NCBI GenBank assembly: GCA_018816555.1
Contig: JAHIVT010000017.1
Location: 1 to 43,208 of the forward strand
Origin: Pseudomonadota bacterium
GTDB lineage: Bacteria > Desulfobacterota > Desulfobulbia > Desulfobulbales > SURF-16
Length of the DNA: 43,208 bases
Direction: 5' to 3'
This document shows positions 25,739 to 42,525 of this stretch, in pieces. Position 1 is the first letter of the stretch. Every line of letters begins with the position of its first letter. The translations under genes and the position numbers were made by a program. Below the pieces are notes generated by a model. The model was not told where the DNA came from, ran no database searches, and was given only the letters and a program-made list of their open reading frames with translations.

Positions 25739-25767
25739 TTACTGATTTTTTTTCAATCGGGTATAGT
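25739..25767 (+). promoter_or_regulatory. Sigma-70-type promoter candidate for trpBA
   Basis: TTACTG (25739-25744) and TATAGT (25762-25767) are separated by 17 bases, close to the housekeeping consensus. A start near 25774 would give a leader of about 55 bases before trpB. The leader shows no obvious Trp-codon leader peptide, so attenuation is not supported. Confidence 0.4.
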
Positions 25768-25828
25768 ATTTCTCTTTAAAATTCTTTAATTCATAACCCT
25801 TAGCGGCAAACCTTGAACACCTAACCTT

Positions 25829-27073
25829 ATGAACCACAAAGCAATGAACAAACCAGGATATTACGGAGAATGGGGCGGCGCCTTCATTCCCGAAGTGCTG
25901 TACCAAACCTTCTGCGAACTCAATGAGGCCTTTCAAAAGGCCAAGGCCGACCCCGCCTTCTGGCAGGAATACGTCAGCCTGATGAGCACCTACTCCTGCC
26001 GTCCCACGCCATTGACCCATGCGGAGAATCTCTCCCGGCATTTCGGCGGGGCGCAGATCTTCATCAAACGGGAAGACCTCAACCACACCGGCGCCCACAA
26101 GGCCAACAATGTCATGGGCCAGGGCCTGCTGGTGAAAAAGATGGGCAAAAAGCGGGTCATTGCCGAGACCGGGGCCGGCCAGCACGGGGTGGCCACGGCC
26201 ACCATGGCGGCCAAATTCGGCTTTGCCTGCACCATCTACATGGGTGAAGAGGATGTGATGCGCCAGCGGCCCAATGTCTTCTGGATGGAAAAACTCGGCG
26301 CCACGGTGGTGCCGGTCACCTCGGGCTCCAAGACCTTGAAGGACGCCATCAACGAGGCCTTCCGCGACTGGGTGACCCGCATGGATGATACCCATTACGT
26401 CATGGGCACCGTCTGCGGCCCCCATCCCTTTCCGGAAATGGTGGCCTGGTTCCAGTCCATCATCGGCCGGGAGGCCTGCGGGCAGATCAAGCAGCAGTTC
26501 GGCAGGCAGCCCAGCAGGGTTTACGCCTGTGTCGGCGGCGGCTCCAACGCCATGGGTATTTTCCAGGGTTTTCTCGACAACCCGGCGGTGGAACTGGTGG
26601 GGGTGGAGGCAGGAGGCAAGGGCCTTGACAGCGGCCGGCACGCCTCACGCCTGGCAGCCAAGGATGGTTCCCCCGGAGTGGCCCAGGGCTACAAGAGCAT
26701 GTTTCTGCAGAACAGTGACGGCCAGATGATGGATACCCACTCGGTGGCGGCCGGCCTCGACTATGTCGGCGTCTCCCCCATTCTCGCCGATCTCTGGCAA
26801 AAAAAGCTGGTGCGCTTTGCCGCGGCGACGGATGCGGAGGTCATGGCAGCCCTTGATCTCACCATGAAAAAGGAGGGCCTCATCCCGGCCCTGGAATCGA
26901 CCCACGCCTTTGTCCAGGCCTTCAAGGAGGCAGGCGACCTGGGTCGTGACGAGGCCATCATCATCAACATGTCCGGCAGGGGCGACAAGGACATCTTCAC
27001 CATTGCCCATGCCTTTAACGATCCGTCCTGGAAAGAATTTATCAAAAAGAAAGGAATTGAATATGGAGCTTAA
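25829..27073 (+). CDS. trpB: Tryptophan synthase beta subunit TrpB
   Basis: This pyridoxal-phosphate enzyme joins indole and serine to make tryptophan. At 414 residues it has family length. The PLP lysine is K91 in DLNHTGAHKANN. AETGAGQHGVATAT carries the catalytic Glu region, and VGGGSNAMGIF is the phosphate-binding loop. It starts MNHKAMNKPGYYGEWGGAF, typical for TrpB1; a second ATG at 25844 is possible. No strong Shine-Dalgarno is seen. trpA starts inside its last codons (27063), giving an 11-base overlap. No other trp genes are in the window, so the rest of the pathway must be encoded elsewhere. Confidence 0.97.
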   Translation: MNHKAMNKPGYYGEWGGAFIPEVLYQTFCELNEAFQKAKADPAFWQEYVSLMSTYSCRPTPLTHAENLSRHFGGAQIFIKREDLNHTGAHKANNVMGQGLLVKKMGKKRVIAETGAGQHGVATATMAAKFGFACTIYMGEEDVMRQRPNVFWMEKLGATVVPVTSGSKTLKDAINEAFRDWVTRMDDTHYVMGTVCGPHPFPEMVAWFQSIIGREACGQIKQQFGRQPSRVYACVGGGSNAMGIFQGFLDNPAVELVGVEAGGKGLDSGRHASRLAAKDGSPGVAQGYKSMFLQNSDGQMMDTHSVAAGLDYVGVSPILADLWQKKLVRFAAATDAEVMAALDLTMKKEGLIPALESTHAFVQAFKEAGDLGRDEAIIINMSGRGDKDIFTIAHAFNDPSWKEFIKKKGIEYGA

Positions 27074-36238: not shown

Positions 36239-37462
36239 CTACCCGGCCTTCTGCACATACGGCTTCAATTCGAAATGTTTCTTGTAGGGGTCGATCTGCA
36301 GGTGATAATACCGGTGCTGCGGCATATAGATATAAGGGACCTCTTCCTTGGGGCGGAAAACGAAATCCGATAAAATCATGCGGTTCACTGCACGATGGCC
36401 GACAATCATGATGTTGTCATTGTAATTATTGAGGTAGAAGATCTTCTGCAGCCCGCGGTGCACCCGTTTTTCCATGGTGGCATAGCCCTCTCCCGAGGGA
36501 TAGACGTACCCGAATTTATTGCGGTTCCTGGCATTGGCCACATGGGGTATCTGCCGGCGGATTTCCTGATAGGTCATGCCTTCGCAGAGTCCGGCATGGA
36601 TCTCGTTGAATTCCGGCAGGGCGATGATTGAGCAGTCCTTCTGTTTTGCGGCAATGGGTGCGGCCGTCTGCAGGGTCCGCTTATGGTTGCTGGTAAAGAT
36701 GACAGGAAGGGGCACATCGGCGAAATGCTCGGCCAGAGCCCCGGCCTGGGCCAGACCTTTTTCCGTCAGATCCGAATCCCCGCCGATGCGGTCTTCCAGG
36801 TTGAAATAGGTTTCTCCGTGGCGCACCAGAAAGAGATTTCTGACGATCCGGGTGGTAATGATATCGCGGATCCGGTCATAATAGGGAACCACATCGGAAA
36901 TCTGCTCCTGCAGGATACAGCCCTCAAAGGAATCGACCAGGAGACGGTTGCGCTCCTCATGCAAGGGTTCGTAAATACTTTCGTAATGGGAAATACGCTT
37001 GTAAAAGCTGTCAAACGCCTCTGCCGGAGTAAGATGGCTGAACTCCGTCAATGTGGCTTTGTGCTCCAGGTAGGCCTCATTGGCCTCTTCATCCACATTG
37101 ACGCATTCAATAAAAAACAACGGCAGCCCGTTAAAAGTTTCCTCAATCATCCTGCGCCGGTAACGGGTCACATTACCGGCGTCAATAATGGCCACTTCCC
37201 CGCCATTTCCCAGAAAGGAATGGGCAAGGCCCAGGTTGATGCGAGCGCACTTCTCCCGCAGCTCCAGCCCTTTCGGGTTATGGGGAGAAAAAAAATCCGG
37301 GGAAGAGGTATTTTCCTGGGAAAGCTTACGGCGCAGCTCACCGTTGTTGAATATCTCCACCCGCACATCATCATACTCAAGGGTGCGGGCGATTTTCCAG
37401 GCCATGGTGGATTTGCCCCGGGCCGGCAGGCCGACCATGGCGATTACCAGTTTCTCTTTCAT
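36239..37462 (-). CDS. 6-phosphofructo-2-kinase/fructose-2,6-bisphosphatase-like bifunctional protein
   Basis: This 407-residue protein joins two domains in the eukaryotic PFKFB order. The N-terminal P-loop kinase has MVGLPARGKST (9-19), FNNGELRRKL (the substrate-sugar loop), a Ser/Pro-rich stretch, and AIIDAGNVTRYRR (Walker-B-like, Asn and Thr conserved). The C-terminal histidine phosphatase begins LFLVRHGETYFNLEDRIGGD, with the phospho-His in RHGE; NEIHAGLCEGMTY holds the acid Glu and IMIVGHRAVNRM the second His. It would make and break fructose-2,6-bisphosphate, a signal regulating glycolysis in eukaryotes. Bacterial members are rare but I recall one studied from a Desulfovibrio. Both active sites look intact. 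Function here is inferred. Confidence 0.9.
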   Translation of the reverse strand: MKEKLVIAMVGLPARGKSTMAWKIARTLEYDDVRVEIFNNGELRRKLSQENTSSPDFFSPHNPKGLELREKCARINLGLAHSFLGNGGEVAIIDAGNVTRYRRRMIEETFNGLPLFFIECVNVDEEANEAYLEHKATLTEFSHLTPAEAFDSFYKRISHYESIYEPLHEERNRLLVDSFEGCILQEQISDVVPYYDRIRDIITTRIVRNLFLVRHGETYFNLEDRIGGDSDLTEKGLAQAGALAEHFADVPLPVIFTSNHKRTLQTAAPIAAKQKDCSIIALPEFNEIHAGLCEGMTYQEIRRQIPHVANARNRNKFGYVYPSGEGYATMEKRVHRGLQKIFYLNNYNDNIMIVGHRAVNRMILSDFVFRPKEEVPYIYMPQHRYYHLQIDPYKKHFELKPYVQKAG

Positions 37463-38124
37463 AGAACAGCACCTCCCCTTGACCGAAAATTGATGCAGCA
37501 GAGCCTGGGATGCGGGTGCTCCTGGCTGCGGGTATGGCTGTGGGCGGGTTTTCCTGTGGTCATGATCGGCTCTCCCAAGTCAAATTAATATCTGCTCACC
37601 ACTCGTTTCCAGCCAGTCAGGAAGTGCATTCTATCTGCTGGGAAATTAAGCATAAGGTTGACAGTTTACGGTTGACAGTTGACAGTTGGCAGTCGAAGGA
37701 AATTCTCTTGTAAGATTTTGCTATGAGGAAACCGTAAACTGCAAACCGGCAACTGTAAACTCATCACAGCGGACCTGATTAATATCGCTGAATTTCGATG
37801 ATAATCATAAAATTTAGAACTCCTGAGGTCATAACGTAATTTCAACAAATTATTCACCACTCCGGATTCTGGCCTGTTATCAGTTTGAGTGTCTGAAATA
37901 CTTGAAGTACTTAAAGGGCCTAAAGTTAAGTCATAGCGTTTTTCTCTCTTTCTTGGCAAGAATTTAATCACCACCACTCCGGAACGGAATGGCCATGTGG
38001 AGGCAAAACGATAAATTCCCCAAAAAAAATCTTCCGCTGGTGGAAAACATGTATTATGGAAAGTCAAGGGGGCACTACCTCACAACTCTTTTCTTCCCTG
38101 ACATTTTTTAAAGCAAAAACAGTA
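37463..38124. other. 660-base intergenic region with GTTGACAGTT repeats
   Basis: This gap has no convincing gene. A cluster near its middle carries GTTGACAGTT-type units (37657-37693), and an opposite-oriented arm with AACCGTAAACTG (37730-37741) exactly complements CAGTTTACGGTT (37662-37673). The element resembles short dispersed repeats seen in many bacteria. The right half is A+T-rich and may hold the promoter of the selenoprotein candidate. Confidence 0.45.
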
Positions 38125-38472
38125 ATGGGCACGGACCAGCGCACAGCAATCATGATCAGCAGGCAGGCCATGGAGTTTATTACCGCAAACGGCGGTCACG
38201 CAACTCTCTATCTGGTGCTCCGTCCTGCCGTTGACGGCTGATGAATCAAAGTACCAACCCCGGCGGTCCGCCTGGGGAAACCAAACAAACGTACCCTGAC
38301 TGAATACGTACAGATTACGGTGGATCCTGTCATGATCTGGCACCCTGGGGATATCGAAGCCGATCAGCAGGACGGGTTGATTGAGATAACCATGACGAAA
38401 TTTCTTTTATTCAAAAATCTGTCGGTAAAGGGTGCCAGGGCAAAACTCCCTGATAAAAAGAATCAGCGCTGA
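38125..38472 (+). CDS. Probable HesB-like CC/Se-motif selenoprotein with tandem selenocysteine (UGA-UGA)
   Basis: One frame runs from the ATG at 38125 (38056 and 38152 are alternatives) through two consecutive TGA codons at 38239-38244, then 75 more sense codons to a TGA at 38470-38472, giving 115 residues. Before the pair: ISRQAMEFITANGGHATLYL, then VLRPAVDG. After it: IKVPTPAVRLGKP, then VMIWHPGDIEADQQDGLIEI and KFLLFKNLSVKG. Both halves read as one HesB/IscA-like small protein; related proteins carry CC or Cys/Sec at the Gly-adjacent pair (I recall an NCBI family named CC/Se motif family (seleno)protein). A hairpin placed like a bacterial SECIS follows the pair. Alternative: a pseudogene with two stops, but an intact downstream frame argues against it. 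Standard gene callers would end it at 38241. Confidence 0.75.
38258..38277 (+). promoter_or_regulatory. Candidate bacterial SECIS hairpin
   Basis: CCCC (38258-38261) pairs with GGGG (38274-38277) and GGCG (38262-38265) with CGCC (38269-38272), with a bulged U at 38273 and apex GUC, so the top reads GGUC. The E. coli fdhF SECIS also has a GGUC apex and a bulged U, though there the bulge is on the 5' side. The apex lies 21-24 bases after the second UGA, inside the usual spacing. The element is within the reading frame, as required in bacteria. Confidence 0.65.
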
Positions 38473-38537: not shown

Positions 38538-39845
38538 ATGACCAGAGAAAATATTCCTGATAGGCCGAGTACCGCGGATGCCAGAACGGTGCAGTCCGCC
38601 CTGGACATCCTGGACAGCGACAGGAAAAAGAACCGCCTGGCCCGGCTCATGCCCTTTCTCGGTCCAGCCTTCATTGCCAGTGTCGCCTATATTGATCCCG
38701 GCAATTTCGCCACCAACATTCAGGCCGGGGCCGAATTCGGCTACATGCTCCTCTGGGTCATCGTGGCCAGCAACCTCATGGCCATGCTGATTCAGACCAT
38801 GTCCGCCAAACTCGGCATTGCCACGGGCATGAACCTGGCGGAACACTGCCGCGCCCATTTTCCACGGCCCGTGGTCATCGGTCTGTGGATCATGATGGAA
38901 CTGGTGGCCATGGCCACGGATCTGGCGGAATTCCTGGGTGCCGCCCTGGGCTTCAACCTCCTGTTCGGCGTGCCGTTGCTGGTCGGCGCCATTCTCACGG
39001 CCATCGCCTCACTTGTCATTCTCGGCCTGGAGCGCTATGGATTCCGCTCCTTGGAGGCGGTCATCACCGCCATGGTAGGGGTGATTGCCCTGTGCTATCT
39101 GCTGGAGACTATTATCGACAAACCAGAGTGGCACCAGGTGCTGTATCATTCTTTCGTTCCGCAGTTTTCCGGGGCGGAGAGCGTGATCCTCGCCTCGGGC
39201 ATACTCGGCGCCACCGTCATGCCTCATGCCATATTCCTGCATTCGGCACTGACCCAGGGTCGTATCGTAGTCAGGGACAGTGTCCGGCTGCGCAAACTGT
39301 ACCGTTACGAAATCGCCGATGTCTTCATCGCCATGGGCATTGCCAGCTTTGTCAACGCGGCCATGCTGATCATGGCCGCGGCAACCTTCTACAAAACAGG
39401 CCTCACCCACATCGCCACCATCGAGGAGGCCTACCGGACCCTGGAACCCCTGCTGGGCACCGGGGCAAAATGGTTTTTCGGTCTTTCCCTGCTGGTTGCC
39501 GGCCTGTCGTCATCCACGGTGGGCACCAGCGCCGGTCAGGTGATCATGCAGGGTTTTCTCAAGCGGCACATTCCGGTCTGGATACGACGCATGGTCACCA
39601 TGGCCCCGTCCATCCTGGTTATCGGTGCAGGCCTTGACCCCACCCGCACCCTGGTTATGAGCCAGGTGGTGCTGAGTTTCGGCCTGCCCTTTGCCATTGT
39701 GCCCCTGGTGATGTTCACCCGGCGCAGCGACATCATGGGTGAACTGGTGAACAGGGCGGCAACCACGGTTTTATCCGCCATAATCGCGGCGATCATTATT
39801 GCTCTCAACATCTACCTTTTGTATCAAATACTCTTTAGCGGGTGA
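38538..39845 (+). CDS. mntH: Nramp family divalent metal transporter (MntH-like)
   Basis: This 435-residue inner-membrane proton-coupled importer takes up Mn2+ or Fe2+, with ~11 helices. The first-helix metal motif is IDPGNFATNIQAGAEFGY (Asp and Asn are ligands), and the sixth-helix motif is ATVMPHAIFLHSAL (Met and His). GLSSSTVGTSAGQVIMQGFL is the conserved cytoplasmic loop. The N-terminal ~30 residues are an extra charged tail (DILDSDRKKNRLARLMPFLG). Four bases separate its stop from the universal stress protein gene, so they form a unit. No Mn or Fe regulator box was recognised upstream. The metal preference is inferred from family. Confidence 0.93.
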   Translation: MTRENIPDRPSTADARTVQSALDILDSDRKKNRLARLMPFLGPAFIASVAYIDPGNFATNIQAGAEFGYMLLWVIVASNLMAMLIQTMSAKLGIATGMNLAEHCRAHFPRPVVIGLWIMMELVAMATDLAEFLGAALGFNLLFGVPLLVGAILTAIASLVILGLERYGFRSLEAVITAMVGVIALCYLLETIIDKPEWHQVLYHSFVPQFSGAESVILASGILGATVMPHAIFLHSALTQGRIVVRDSVRLRKLYRYEIADVFIAMGIASFVNAAMLIMAAATFYKTGLTHIATIEEAYRTLEPLLGTGAKWFFGLSLLVAGLSSSTVGTSAGQVIMQGFLKRHIPVWIRRMVTMAPSILVIGAGLDPTRTLVMSQVVLSFGLPFAIVPLVMFTRRSDIMGELVNRAATTVLSAIIAAIIIALNIYLLYQILFSG

Positions 39846-40773: not shown

Positions 40774-41095
40774 GCAACCGGCAGCATCGCACGAAAACAT
40801 GGGGTTGAAAAAAATGGCGGTTGATCTGCTAAACCGCTATCATGATCCGGAACATGGACTTGACCAAGAATGAGAGAGTTGAGACAGCAGAAATTGCTCA
40901 CATCACATACAATGAACAGATATACGCTTTCCATCATGGCCTTATGGCTTATGCCTGTTCCTGGGCTATGGAATTGCCGCCTGCGCAGGACTTGTTATGA
41001 TTTGGGCCGGCAGCATCGTGCCGATCTGCATGTATTGCAATAATATCCGGGACCTGCCTGACGACAGGAATAAAAAAGCGGCACACGGAGAACTG
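40774..41095. other. 320-base intergenic region with a possible signalling-protein remnant
   Basis: No full gene is convincing here. From 40997 an in-frame stretch reads GSIVPICMYCNNIRD, resembling the G-LPIC--CK-IRDD tail found after PAS or receiver domains in deltaproteobacterial signalling proteins. It is in frame with the next CDS, so either that protein starts at 40997 or this is a leftover of an older gene. Confidence 0.35.
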
Positions 41096-41308
41096 ATGAA
41101 AAAGATCTGCGAGATATGCAATGGCTCCGGCCAGTTAAGCTCATTCAAGGGGGTGAGCAGATTCCTGCTCTCCTGGGAAGAATGCCCGGAGTGCGCCGGG
41201 CTGGGATACCTCATTGCCCTGGATGGGGATAGCGAGGCACAGGCAGAAAAGCAGGACCATGACGACAATGGCAAAGCAAAAAAGAACTGCCGCAGAGGCA
41301 GGACTTGA
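41096..41308 (+). CDS. Small two-CxxC zinc-ribbon-like protein
   Basis: This 70-residue protein has CGGAGAACTG before the ATG at 41096. Two CxxC pairs, CEICNGSGQL and CPECAGLGYL, resemble half of the DnaJ-type zinc centre (CxxCxGxG) and would bind one zinc or support a redox pair. The tail is acidic then basic (DDNGKAKKNCRRGR). An in-frame upstream ATG (40997) would add a third CxxC (PICMYC). Function is unknown; DnaJ-like ribbons act as protein-binding or disulfide modules. The alkaline phosphatase gene begins 35 bases downstream. Confidence 0.6.
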   Translation: MKKICEICNGSGQLSSFKGVSRFLLSWEECPECAGLGYLIALDGDSEAQAEKQDHDDNGKAKKNCRRGRT

Positions 41309-41343
41309 GCTGGCCGCCCGATCAACTGAGACAGGTTCCACCC

Positions 41344-42525
41344 ATGATCCGTCGTAAAAAATCTTCCATTTTCCTCACGATCCTCGCCCTGCTGCTGGTT
41401 CTGGCCGCGGCCGGTTGCTTGCCGCAGGATCCGGCAACCGGCGCCACTTCCGGAGTCAGAAACATCATCCTCTTTATCGGCGACGGCATGGGCCAGGCCC
41501 AGCGCCAGGCCGCCCTCTGGGCTGCTGTGGATGATGACGGCCTGCTGGCCATGGATGATATGCCGGCGGCCGGACTTCTCCATACGGCAGCGGCCGACAG
41601 TGATGTCACCGACTCCGCTGCAGCGGCAACTGCCATGGCAAGCGGCGTCAAGACCAATGTCGGCGTCATCGGACTTGACGCGGGACTTGCGCCGGTGGCC
41701 ACTATTCTGGAAAAGGCCGGATCTCGGGGAAAACTGACCGGGCTGGTGACAACCACCCCTATCACGGATGCCACCCCTGCCGCCTTTGCCGCCCACGTCC
41801 GTGACAGAAAACTTTTTGCGGAAATTGCCGTCCAGCTGCTGAACGCCAAGGTTGATGTCATGCTGGGCGGCGGCGAGGATACCTTGCTGCCGGTTTCGGA
41901 GACCGGCTGTGATGAAAAATACAGGGAACGCAACGCCGGGAGAAATACCTTCAGGAGGGCGTCCAACCAGGGCACCACCTGGGTCTGTGATGCCAAGGCC
42001 CTGGCAGCGGTTGATCCGGCCTCGACCACGCGGCTCGTCGGCCTCTTTGCCGACCAGGGCATGACCCGTCCTTTTTCTCCCTCCCTGGCCGACATGACCC
42101 AAAGGGCCATCGACATCCTGGCCAGGGGGCCGAACGGCTTTTTCCTCATGGTGGAAGCCGGCCAGATCGACTGGGCCGCGCATACCAATGACGCGGAGCA
42201 TGTCATTGCCGACACCATCGGTCTGGACCGGGCGGTAAAAATCGCCAGACAATATGCCGCCGCAAACAATGACACCCTGATCATCGTCACAGCCGACCAC
42301 GAGACCGGGGGCATGGCGCTCTCCCATCTGCCCATGGGATTAAACGGGGAAGACGGTCCCTTTCCCATGGCAGGTGGCGGAACATTTTATGTCAACTGGT
42401 CCACCAGACAACATACCCCGACCGATGTGCCGGTCACCGCCATGGGCCCGGGAGCGCAACAGCTGAACGGCGTCCACGACAACACCTTTGTTTATAAGGT
42501 CATGGAGAAGGCGCTCGGCAAATAA
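41344..42525 (+). CDS. Lipoprotein alkaline phosphatase (PhoA family)
   Basis: This 393-residue phosphomonoesterase would be anchored on the periplasmic side by lipid. Lipobox LAAAGC places the modified Cys at residue 25 after a hydrophobic helix. NIILFIGDGMGQ holds the first metal Asp, DVTDSAAAATAMASG the nucleophilic Ser, VEAGQIDWAAHTND the second metal cluster and VTADHETGGM the third. It keeps the metal and nucleophile set, so it should be active. No pho box was recognised. It releases phosphate from organic esters; phosphate starvation control is probable but not shown. Confidence 0.93.
   Translation: MIRRKKSSIFLTILALLLVLAAAGCLPQDPATGATSGVRNIILFIGDGMGQAQRQAALWAAVDDDGLLAMDDMPAAGLLHTAAADSDVTDSAAAATAMASGVKTNVGVIGLDAGLAPVATILEKAGSRGKLTGLVTTTPITDATPAAFAAHVRDRKLFAEIAVQLLNAKVDVMLGGGEDTLLPVSETGCDEKYRERNAGRNTFRRASNQGTTWVCDAKALAAVDPASTTRLVGLFADQGMTRPFSPSLADMTQRAIDILARGPNGFFLMVEAGQIDWAAHTNDAEHVIADTIGLDRAVKIARQYAAANNDTLIIVTADHETGGMALSHLPMGLNGEDGPFPMAGGGTFYVNWSTRQHTPTDVPVTAMGPGAQQLNGVHDNTFVYKVMEKALGK

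Follow-up and report, generated by a model that had tools for sequence, protein, structure and literature searches.

Does a bacterial gene with two consecutive in-frame TGA codons end at that point, or is it translated through both of them? The window, that is, the whole stretch of 43,208 nt that we analysed, is one contig (C34) of a 4.93-Mb assembly that is 97% complete, and a sequence-only reading of it had proposed that the gene at 38125–38472 encodes a HesB-like protein with two adjacent selenocysteine (Sec, U) residues. We observed or computed the conservation of both codons, a hairpin downstream of them, the Sec machinery and the predicted fold, and we consider it probable (roughly 0.82) that the gene encodes a 115-residue selenoprotein with a HesB/IscA-like fold, in which both adjacent UGAs are read as Sec via one hairpin.

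A reading frame across two adjacent TGA codons

The gene and its elements are located as follows.

38125..38472, + strand: predicted selenoprotein gene of family NF041239 with Sec39-Sec40, 115 aa plus TGA stop (basis: frame, model match and relatives)
38239..38241, + strand: first in-frame UGA, predicted Sec39; the aligned column is UGA in 31/35 family genes
38242..38244, + strand: second in-frame UGA, predicted Sec40; UGA in 9/9 UU/CU genes
38258..38277, + strand: SECIS-like hairpin CCCCGGCG-GUC-CGCC(U)GGGG, apical loop at 38266–38268

The frame opens with an ATG at 38125 and runs through 38 codons, the TGA TGA pair and 75 sense codons to a TGA stop at 38470–38472. With TGA translated as U, the product reads MGTDQRTAIMISRQAMEFITANGGHATLYLVLRPAVDG-UU-IKVPTPAVRLGKPNKRTLTEYVQITVDPVMIWHPGDIEADQQDGLIEITMTKFLLFKNLSVKGARAKLPDKKNQR, followed by the terminal TGA, and the local motif around the pair is UUIKVP. 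The coordinates and counts given by the sequence-only reading (115 residues, a TGA pair, 75 codons after it) proved correct when we re-read the frame, and the frame continues past the pair, as claimed, with family-like sequence on both sides, eight relatives aligning across it. As to the concern that gene finders would lose most of the gene, standard callers halt at the first of two such codons and readily miss genes of this type. As a check for genome-wide recoding of UGA, 9 of 19 long ORFs chosen from the window terminate in TGA, a weak check because the ORF ends were called with that same code.

Family assignment and distribution

The protein matches the NF041239 model, “CC/Se motif family (seleno)protein” (Moor_selen_rel), over residues 8–103 with 43.5 bits (cut-off 40, E 2.4e-11), a score obtained with C placed at both TGAs; in a six-frame genome search reading through stops the score was 37.9 bits, below the cut-off of 40. 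In that type of search the window gene is the sole family match in its genome at E 0.01. The model also matches all members of our 24-member set, which is circular for those members that were fetched with it. U39-U40 aligns with the UC, CC and CU of relatives, that is, with the CC motif that defines the family, and the gene has two in-frame TGA codons where the family description has one Sec per protein. The number of Sec residues is descriptive and lies outside the model criteria, and the two-Sec form is a variant within NF041239. The label “HesB-like” is apt for the predicted fold (see below) and not for the family, which is NF041239 and not that of the classical HesB-like selenoproteins (TIGR01911).

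Up to E 1, no Pfam family matched the window protein, and searching with the 24-member set gave only two matches, each to a single member, with E values of 0.05 or worse. When the 24-row profile was searched against PDB sequences, the sole matches were three adenosylhomocysteinase sequences (E 1.2), which we take as chance. No relatives of the window protein were found on plasmids or in viral contigs.

A scan of genome contigs with the single protein recovered two relatives, both from the same genus as the window, and nine matches were found among 193 related genomes, the window's own included. Profile searches matched 11 of 257 genomes in the class, 5 of 395 in an even draw from the phylum, 2 of 42 in the class of G383 and 17 of 63 in the class of G422, and the NF041239 model matched 13 of the 395 genomes in the phylum draw; these search sets overlap. 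All distinct genes from these searches, 35 in total, were read. One genome of the window's own genus, G004, had no match to the gene.

Conservation of the TGA pair among relatives

All nine matching genes from the 193 genomes align across the TGA pair, the eight relatives being 38–94% identical to the window protein. The sequence-only reading had named two outcomes that would speak against it at this point, a lack of homologues aligning across the pair and ordinary stops with decay after 38241; we found aligned homologues and a frame that is conserved in them after the pair. The nine aligned genes share 17 invariant columns, 12 of which follow the pair. The codons are TGA TGA in the window and in G001, G002, G005, G010, G011, G018 and G090, and TGT TGA in G003. 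At the DNA level, a single copy of TGATGA-N12-ACCCCNGCGGTNCG is present in each of 8 genomes out of the 193 and is absent from the other 185, and the reversed control pattern was found in none of them. The in-frame TGATGA is thereby kept in eight genomes across four genera and two families, at protein identities down to 38%.

Across the 35 family genes, the pair is UU in 8, CU in 1, UC in 5 (G232, G189, G383, G658 and one of two genes in G422), CC in 2 (L041 and L082), SI in 1 (L042) and U followed by another residue (A, G, R, K or S) in 18. The first place is UGA in 31 genes, Cys in 3 (G003, L041 and L082) and Ser in 1 (L042). UGA at the second place is confined to the UU/CU clade, where it is found in 9/9 genes; four neighbouring UC genes have Cys there, and elsewhere mostly other residues occur. 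All of the CC, UC, CU and UU forms that one would look for under Sec/Cys exchange were recovered, the CU form in a frame-broken copy. The expectation that relatives carry adjacent cysteines at this spot was borne out insofar as C-C exists, but such genes are rare (C-C in 2/35, U-C in 5/35). In the CU gene (L009, G003:C124:396-656), the frame is broken upstream by a 7-bp tandem duplication, which may reflect gene decay or an error in assembly, and this gene therefore gives little support for exchange at the second place.

In an unrooted 24-row tree, in which U was coded as C in every row and the Sec/Cys difference therefore had no effect on tree shape, the eight UU rows and the single CU row cluster together (98/93), adjoined by four UC genes with a TPAVR block, and these 13 genes are split from the rest at 100/100. 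The block, TPAVRxG(K/Q)P, is present in the UU clade and, among the genes read, otherwise only in the CU gene (as PAVRTGKP) and in the four UC genes. No Cys-Cys form of this TPAVR clade was found across 1,578 genomes, repeats counted again. The simplest reading is a single UC to UU change, which takes one base (TGC or TGT to TGA), followed by retention over four genera.

We compared selection on the two parts of the frame, leaving G010, G018 and G090 out of both the dN/dS and the synonymous distance estimates. For the window gene and its closest relative, dN/dS was 0.06 after the pair (9.0 synonymous and 2.0 nonsynonymous changes) and 0.35 before it. The corresponding values were 0.23 and 0.42 against G005, 0.63 (the least favourable figure) and 0.20 against G002, and 0.26 and 0.23 against G011, the part after the pair being the less constrained one in two of the four comparisons. 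Synonymous distances to G005, G002 and G011 were about 0.6–2.1.

A conserved hairpin and the selenocysteine machinery

In bacteria, each Sec insertion requires a SelB complex held on a hairpin near the UGA. In the window, the apical loop of the SECIS-like hairpin starts 24 nt past the first UGA and 21 nt past the second. The relatives' consensus 3′ of the pair, (A/G)(C/T)CCC(T/G)GCGGTNCG(C/T)N, folds as CCC-x-UGCG-GUN-CGCA-x-GGG. Across 11 distinct rows, representing 12 genes with G658 left out, all seven pairs are standard in every row (77/77 pair cells); one pair covaries, from U-A to G-C or G-U, and four of the seven are invariant. Only 2 of 500 shuffles reached the observed percentage paired and 2 of 500 the covariation score, and 321 of 500 reached the observed number of double-changed pairs and 52 of 500 the pair types; slid controls were 16–56% paired. 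For the Ala encoded at the stem and loop edge, 13/13 genes use GCG, which accounts for 19/95 of the other Ala codons in the same genes.

The hairpin lies within the limits given for bacterial SECIS elements (bSECIS) in a 2026 review: a loop of 3–9 nt, a stem of 4–16 bp, a G in the first two loop places, a spacing of 16–37 nt and a minimum free energy of −7.5 or lower (PMC13188914). It has a loop of three (GUC), eight pairs, spacings of 24 and 21 nt and an energy of −12.2 or −13.3 kcal/mol in two computations. In a bSECIS scan that excluded G658, seven of the eight UU genes passed for both UGAs, and G090 failed on energy. However, the rule alone proves little, because 71 of 300 random window TGAs also pass it (16 of these 71 at −13.3 or lower, as against −12.2 for the window gene), and the argument is the conservation of the hairpin. 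The stability of the window hairpin is not clearly higher than that of shuffles (z −1.09). Rfam has no family matching the window at the gathering score, and two matches near the gene under relaxed limits, on the other strand, were at chance level. The corresponding hairpin loop is 36 nt away from the UGA in the UC genes of G189 and G383, and the UU clade is without four codons in this stretch; in the UC gene of G232 the scan favoured a different hairpin, at 24 nt. Where the sequence-only reading had suggested that a SECIS element be predicted, 3′ of the pair, there is a conserved SECIS-like hairpin within published limits.

It had likewise suggested a search for the Sec genes, and regarded a genome without selB and selC as telling against Sec. 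The window genome encodes selB (371.6 bits, on C131), tRNA-Sec (71.5 bits, on C14) and selD (379.7 bits, on C145). Over a sample of 10 genomes, the nine with the gene and the gene-less G004 from the same genus, tRNA-Sec and selD exceeded their cut-offs in 10/10, each selD having its own in-frame TGA, and selB did so in 9/10. In G002, which is 88% complete, selB was seen only as a C-terminal piece near a contig end, along with matches resembling other GTPases.

Predicted fold and possible function

An AlphaFold2 model built from the 24-row alignment has a pLDDT of 87.8 and a pTM of 0.79. Foldseek against the PDB placed SufA/IscA chains in rows 1–6 (best E 1.9e-3, TM 0.48), followed in rows 7–9 by HI1723, an ODPA-YNER model and AQ_1857. 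With VIA-align, the best matches were SufA (Z 8.3, 93 residues, 3.0 Å), a mercury derivative of IscA (Z 8.2, 84 residues, 2.7 Å), IscA (7.7) and DsrR (7.3); VIA-align itself cautions that models without a clear match typically have best Z values of 7 to 8. Z was at least 4.3 for ten entries. The titles of six name IscA, SufA or an Fe-S biosynthesis protein, and we take the remaining four (DsrR, YneR, AQ_1857 and HI1723) to be HesB-type. The next row has Z 2.2, and by this gap the HesB/IscA fold stands out. We conclude that the modelled fold of the window protein is of the HesB/IscA type, in line with the earlier suggestion (SufA Z 8.3).

In the model, three of the 11 predicted secondary-structure elements fall in the first 38 residues, and U39-U40 lies in a loop between the strands 25–34 and 42–50. 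By hhalign, U39 falls on the Sec of HesB-like selenoproteins (2.1% probability) and on Cys35 of IscA (4.8%); neither alignment is significant, so these equivalences are no more than suggestive. Cys is absent from the window protein, and the predicted Sec pair provides its only chalcogen residues besides Met. Without any Cys, the protein is not an IscA-type carrier, and without further Sec the pair would be its sole soft, redox-active site. A vicinal diselenol could chelate a soft metal or metalloid; alternatively, it could undergo redox cycling via a diselenide. Binding of a soft metal or metalloid and service as a one-site redox relay appear equally plausible roles, each at slightly less than even odds. 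Most uncharacterised selenoproteins are considered likely redox proteins, and several are linked to metals, according to the review (PMC13188914).

Decoding of the TGA pair

Under double decoding, SelB with GTP and Sec-tRNA(Sec) would bind the hairpin at 38258–38277 and deliver Sec at the first UGA, and a second SelB complex would bind the same hairpin one codon later and deliver the second Sec, the spacings of 24 and 21 nt both being inside the accepted range. The double insertion and the sharing of one SECIS, like the function, are what the sequences suggest. U39-U40 would then sit in the loop that follows the first long strand, at the position of IscA Cys35 or the HesB-like Sec according to the weak alignment, and the resulting site would be a vicinal diselenol/diselenide. 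We hold more tentatively, and would sooner doubt than accept, a stronger version: that in this clade Sec-Sec is an obligate unit, a vicinal diselenolate/diselenide centre carried by an IscA-like fold and capable of chemistry that single-Sec relatives cannot perform, and that the hairpin was moved nearer (from 36 to 24 and 21 nt) and drives two successive SelB deliveries. If both UGAs are decoded in this manner, two consecutive UGAs with one hairpin would amount to a natural, conserved test of the speed of SelB recharging and the exactness of spacing, and a small modelled protein with two adjacent selenols as its sole soft ligands would present an unusual metal or redox site.

Only one of the UGAs might encode Sec, the other being passed by near-cognate readthrough (e.g., as Trp) or decoded inefficiently, so that the main product would be a single-Sec protein or a mixture. 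In 18 of the 35 family genes U is followed by A, G, R, K or S, and the second place is thus tolerant in the wider family. Nevertheless, the second codon is TGA throughout the nine-gene UU/CU clade and encodes Cys in the four nearest outgroup genes, and at the synonymous distances measured one would expect TGA to have been replaced if this residue were freely tolerated, which makes this alternative unlikely. Less likely still is that the tandem UGA acts as a selenium-sensitive terminator, with a peptide of 38–39 residues as the main product and the downstream frame translated only at high selenium. Two consecutive stops should indeed end translation efficiently without selenium, but 12 of the 17 invariant columns follow the pair, dN/dS is lowest after it in the closest comparison, and a 38-residue product would contain only 3 of the 11 predicted secondary-structure elements.

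That the gene is a pseudogene or the pair a sequencing error, TGATGA being a nonsense mutation, is highly improbable given the identical TGATGA in eight genome assemblies and the conserved frame after it, even though the frame-broken copy in G003 indicates that loss may occur and G004, from the same genus, has no match. Ribosome bypass or frameshifting over UGAUGA, for which we found nothing beyond the structured RNA downstream, has a similarly negligible probability, as the reading frame does not change across the pair and these columns hold Sec or Cys in family members. Decoding of both UGAs as Sec is the reading that we prefer.

Relationship to known selenoproteins

The A-type carriers IscA and SufA share the predicted fold with the window protein (SufA Z 8.3, IscA Z 8.2). 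They have three conserved Cys residues (C35, C99 and C101), with the C-terminal Cys pair in a CGC motif; this three-Cys site is absent here, where the window protein contains no Cys and the alignment no conserved C-terminal Cys. The algal PDI_e is a eukaryotic thioredoxin-type PDI with a SECIS outside the coding region, whereas the hairpin described here lies in the coding frame. PDI_e has two adjacent Sec in a GUGUU motif and is called the first Sec-Sec case by its authors (PMC7539508). The view of tandem Sec as rare accordingly needs qualification by this precedent, although no bacterial Sec-Sec protein was found in the open-licence literature that we searched. MbdU (NF045648), a metal-binding double selenoprotein, is also prokaryotic with two Sec but has CU as its listed motif, a comparison by table description only (PMC13188914). 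Two tandem UGA codons are also the subject of a paper on an Ebola virus gene, where they lie in an overlapping frame (PMC11510084).

NF041239 itself is tabulated with one Sec, and no row has UU as listed motif within the tabulated part of the review (PMC13188914). Window gene and family share the model match and Sec at the first motif place (31/35 members), and differ in the two adjacent Sec predicted here; moreover, among the genes read, members outside the UU/CU genes and the four UC genes lack the TPAVRxG(K/Q)P block of the UU clade. As the family is named with a single Sec and the one Sec-Sec precedent that we found is algal, we regard the UU form as a new form of a known family. With the HesB-like selenoproteins (TIGR01911), the window protein shares the predicted HesB/IscA fold and a Sec at the aligned loop (in an alignment that is not significant). 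The motif listed for that family in the table portion of the review is UxGP (PMC13188914), which the window protein does not contain, having UUIKVP instead. In the window genome, TIGR01911 had matches at E 0.001 on contigs C95 and C14, and none on C34, the contig of the window gene. A HesB-like selenoprotein gene with one in-frame TGA and the motif GGUAGPSLGLALDEP, below the TIGR01911 cut-off, was noted in this genome at G000:C95:40124-40339.

Genomic neighbourhood

Two genes flank the selenoprotein gene.

36239–37462, − strand: 6-phosphofructo-2-kinase and histidine phosphatase domains in one gene, upstream of and divergent from the selenoprotein gene
38538–39845: Nramp metal transporter gene, following the selenoprotein gene

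The combination of 6-phosphofructo-2-kinase and histidine phosphatase in one gene is unusual in bacteria. By eye, from short end sequences, the same kinase/phosphatase-type gene lies upstream in G001, G002, G003, G005 and G011. The Nramp gene also follows in G001 and G003 (by eye), and none was present within the examined flanks of G002, G005 or the genomes beyond the genus; confined to the window and two close relatives, it carries little weight as a clue to function. No conserved partner gene was found in the flanks compared. The Nramp gene of G001 (L001 3428–3817) is apparently shortened, judged by eye.

At G422:C1:1308219-1308761 (L044, L061), a U-A member of the CC/Se family directly adjoins a HesB-type selenoprotein gene on the same strand. 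A motif scan of the window plus the short-flanked loci found a HesB-type selenoprotein motif beside a family gene at 1 of 35 loci.

Elsewhere in the window, two open frames on the − strand, at 40966–42327 (453 aa) and 25739–26641 (300 aa), have no Pfam match at E 1e-5, and each of them may be open by chance. Upstream of the selenoprotein gene, the intergenic region contains, at 37656–37747, an inverted repeat with 18-nt arms that are 89% complementary, overlapped by a 19-nt direct repeat.
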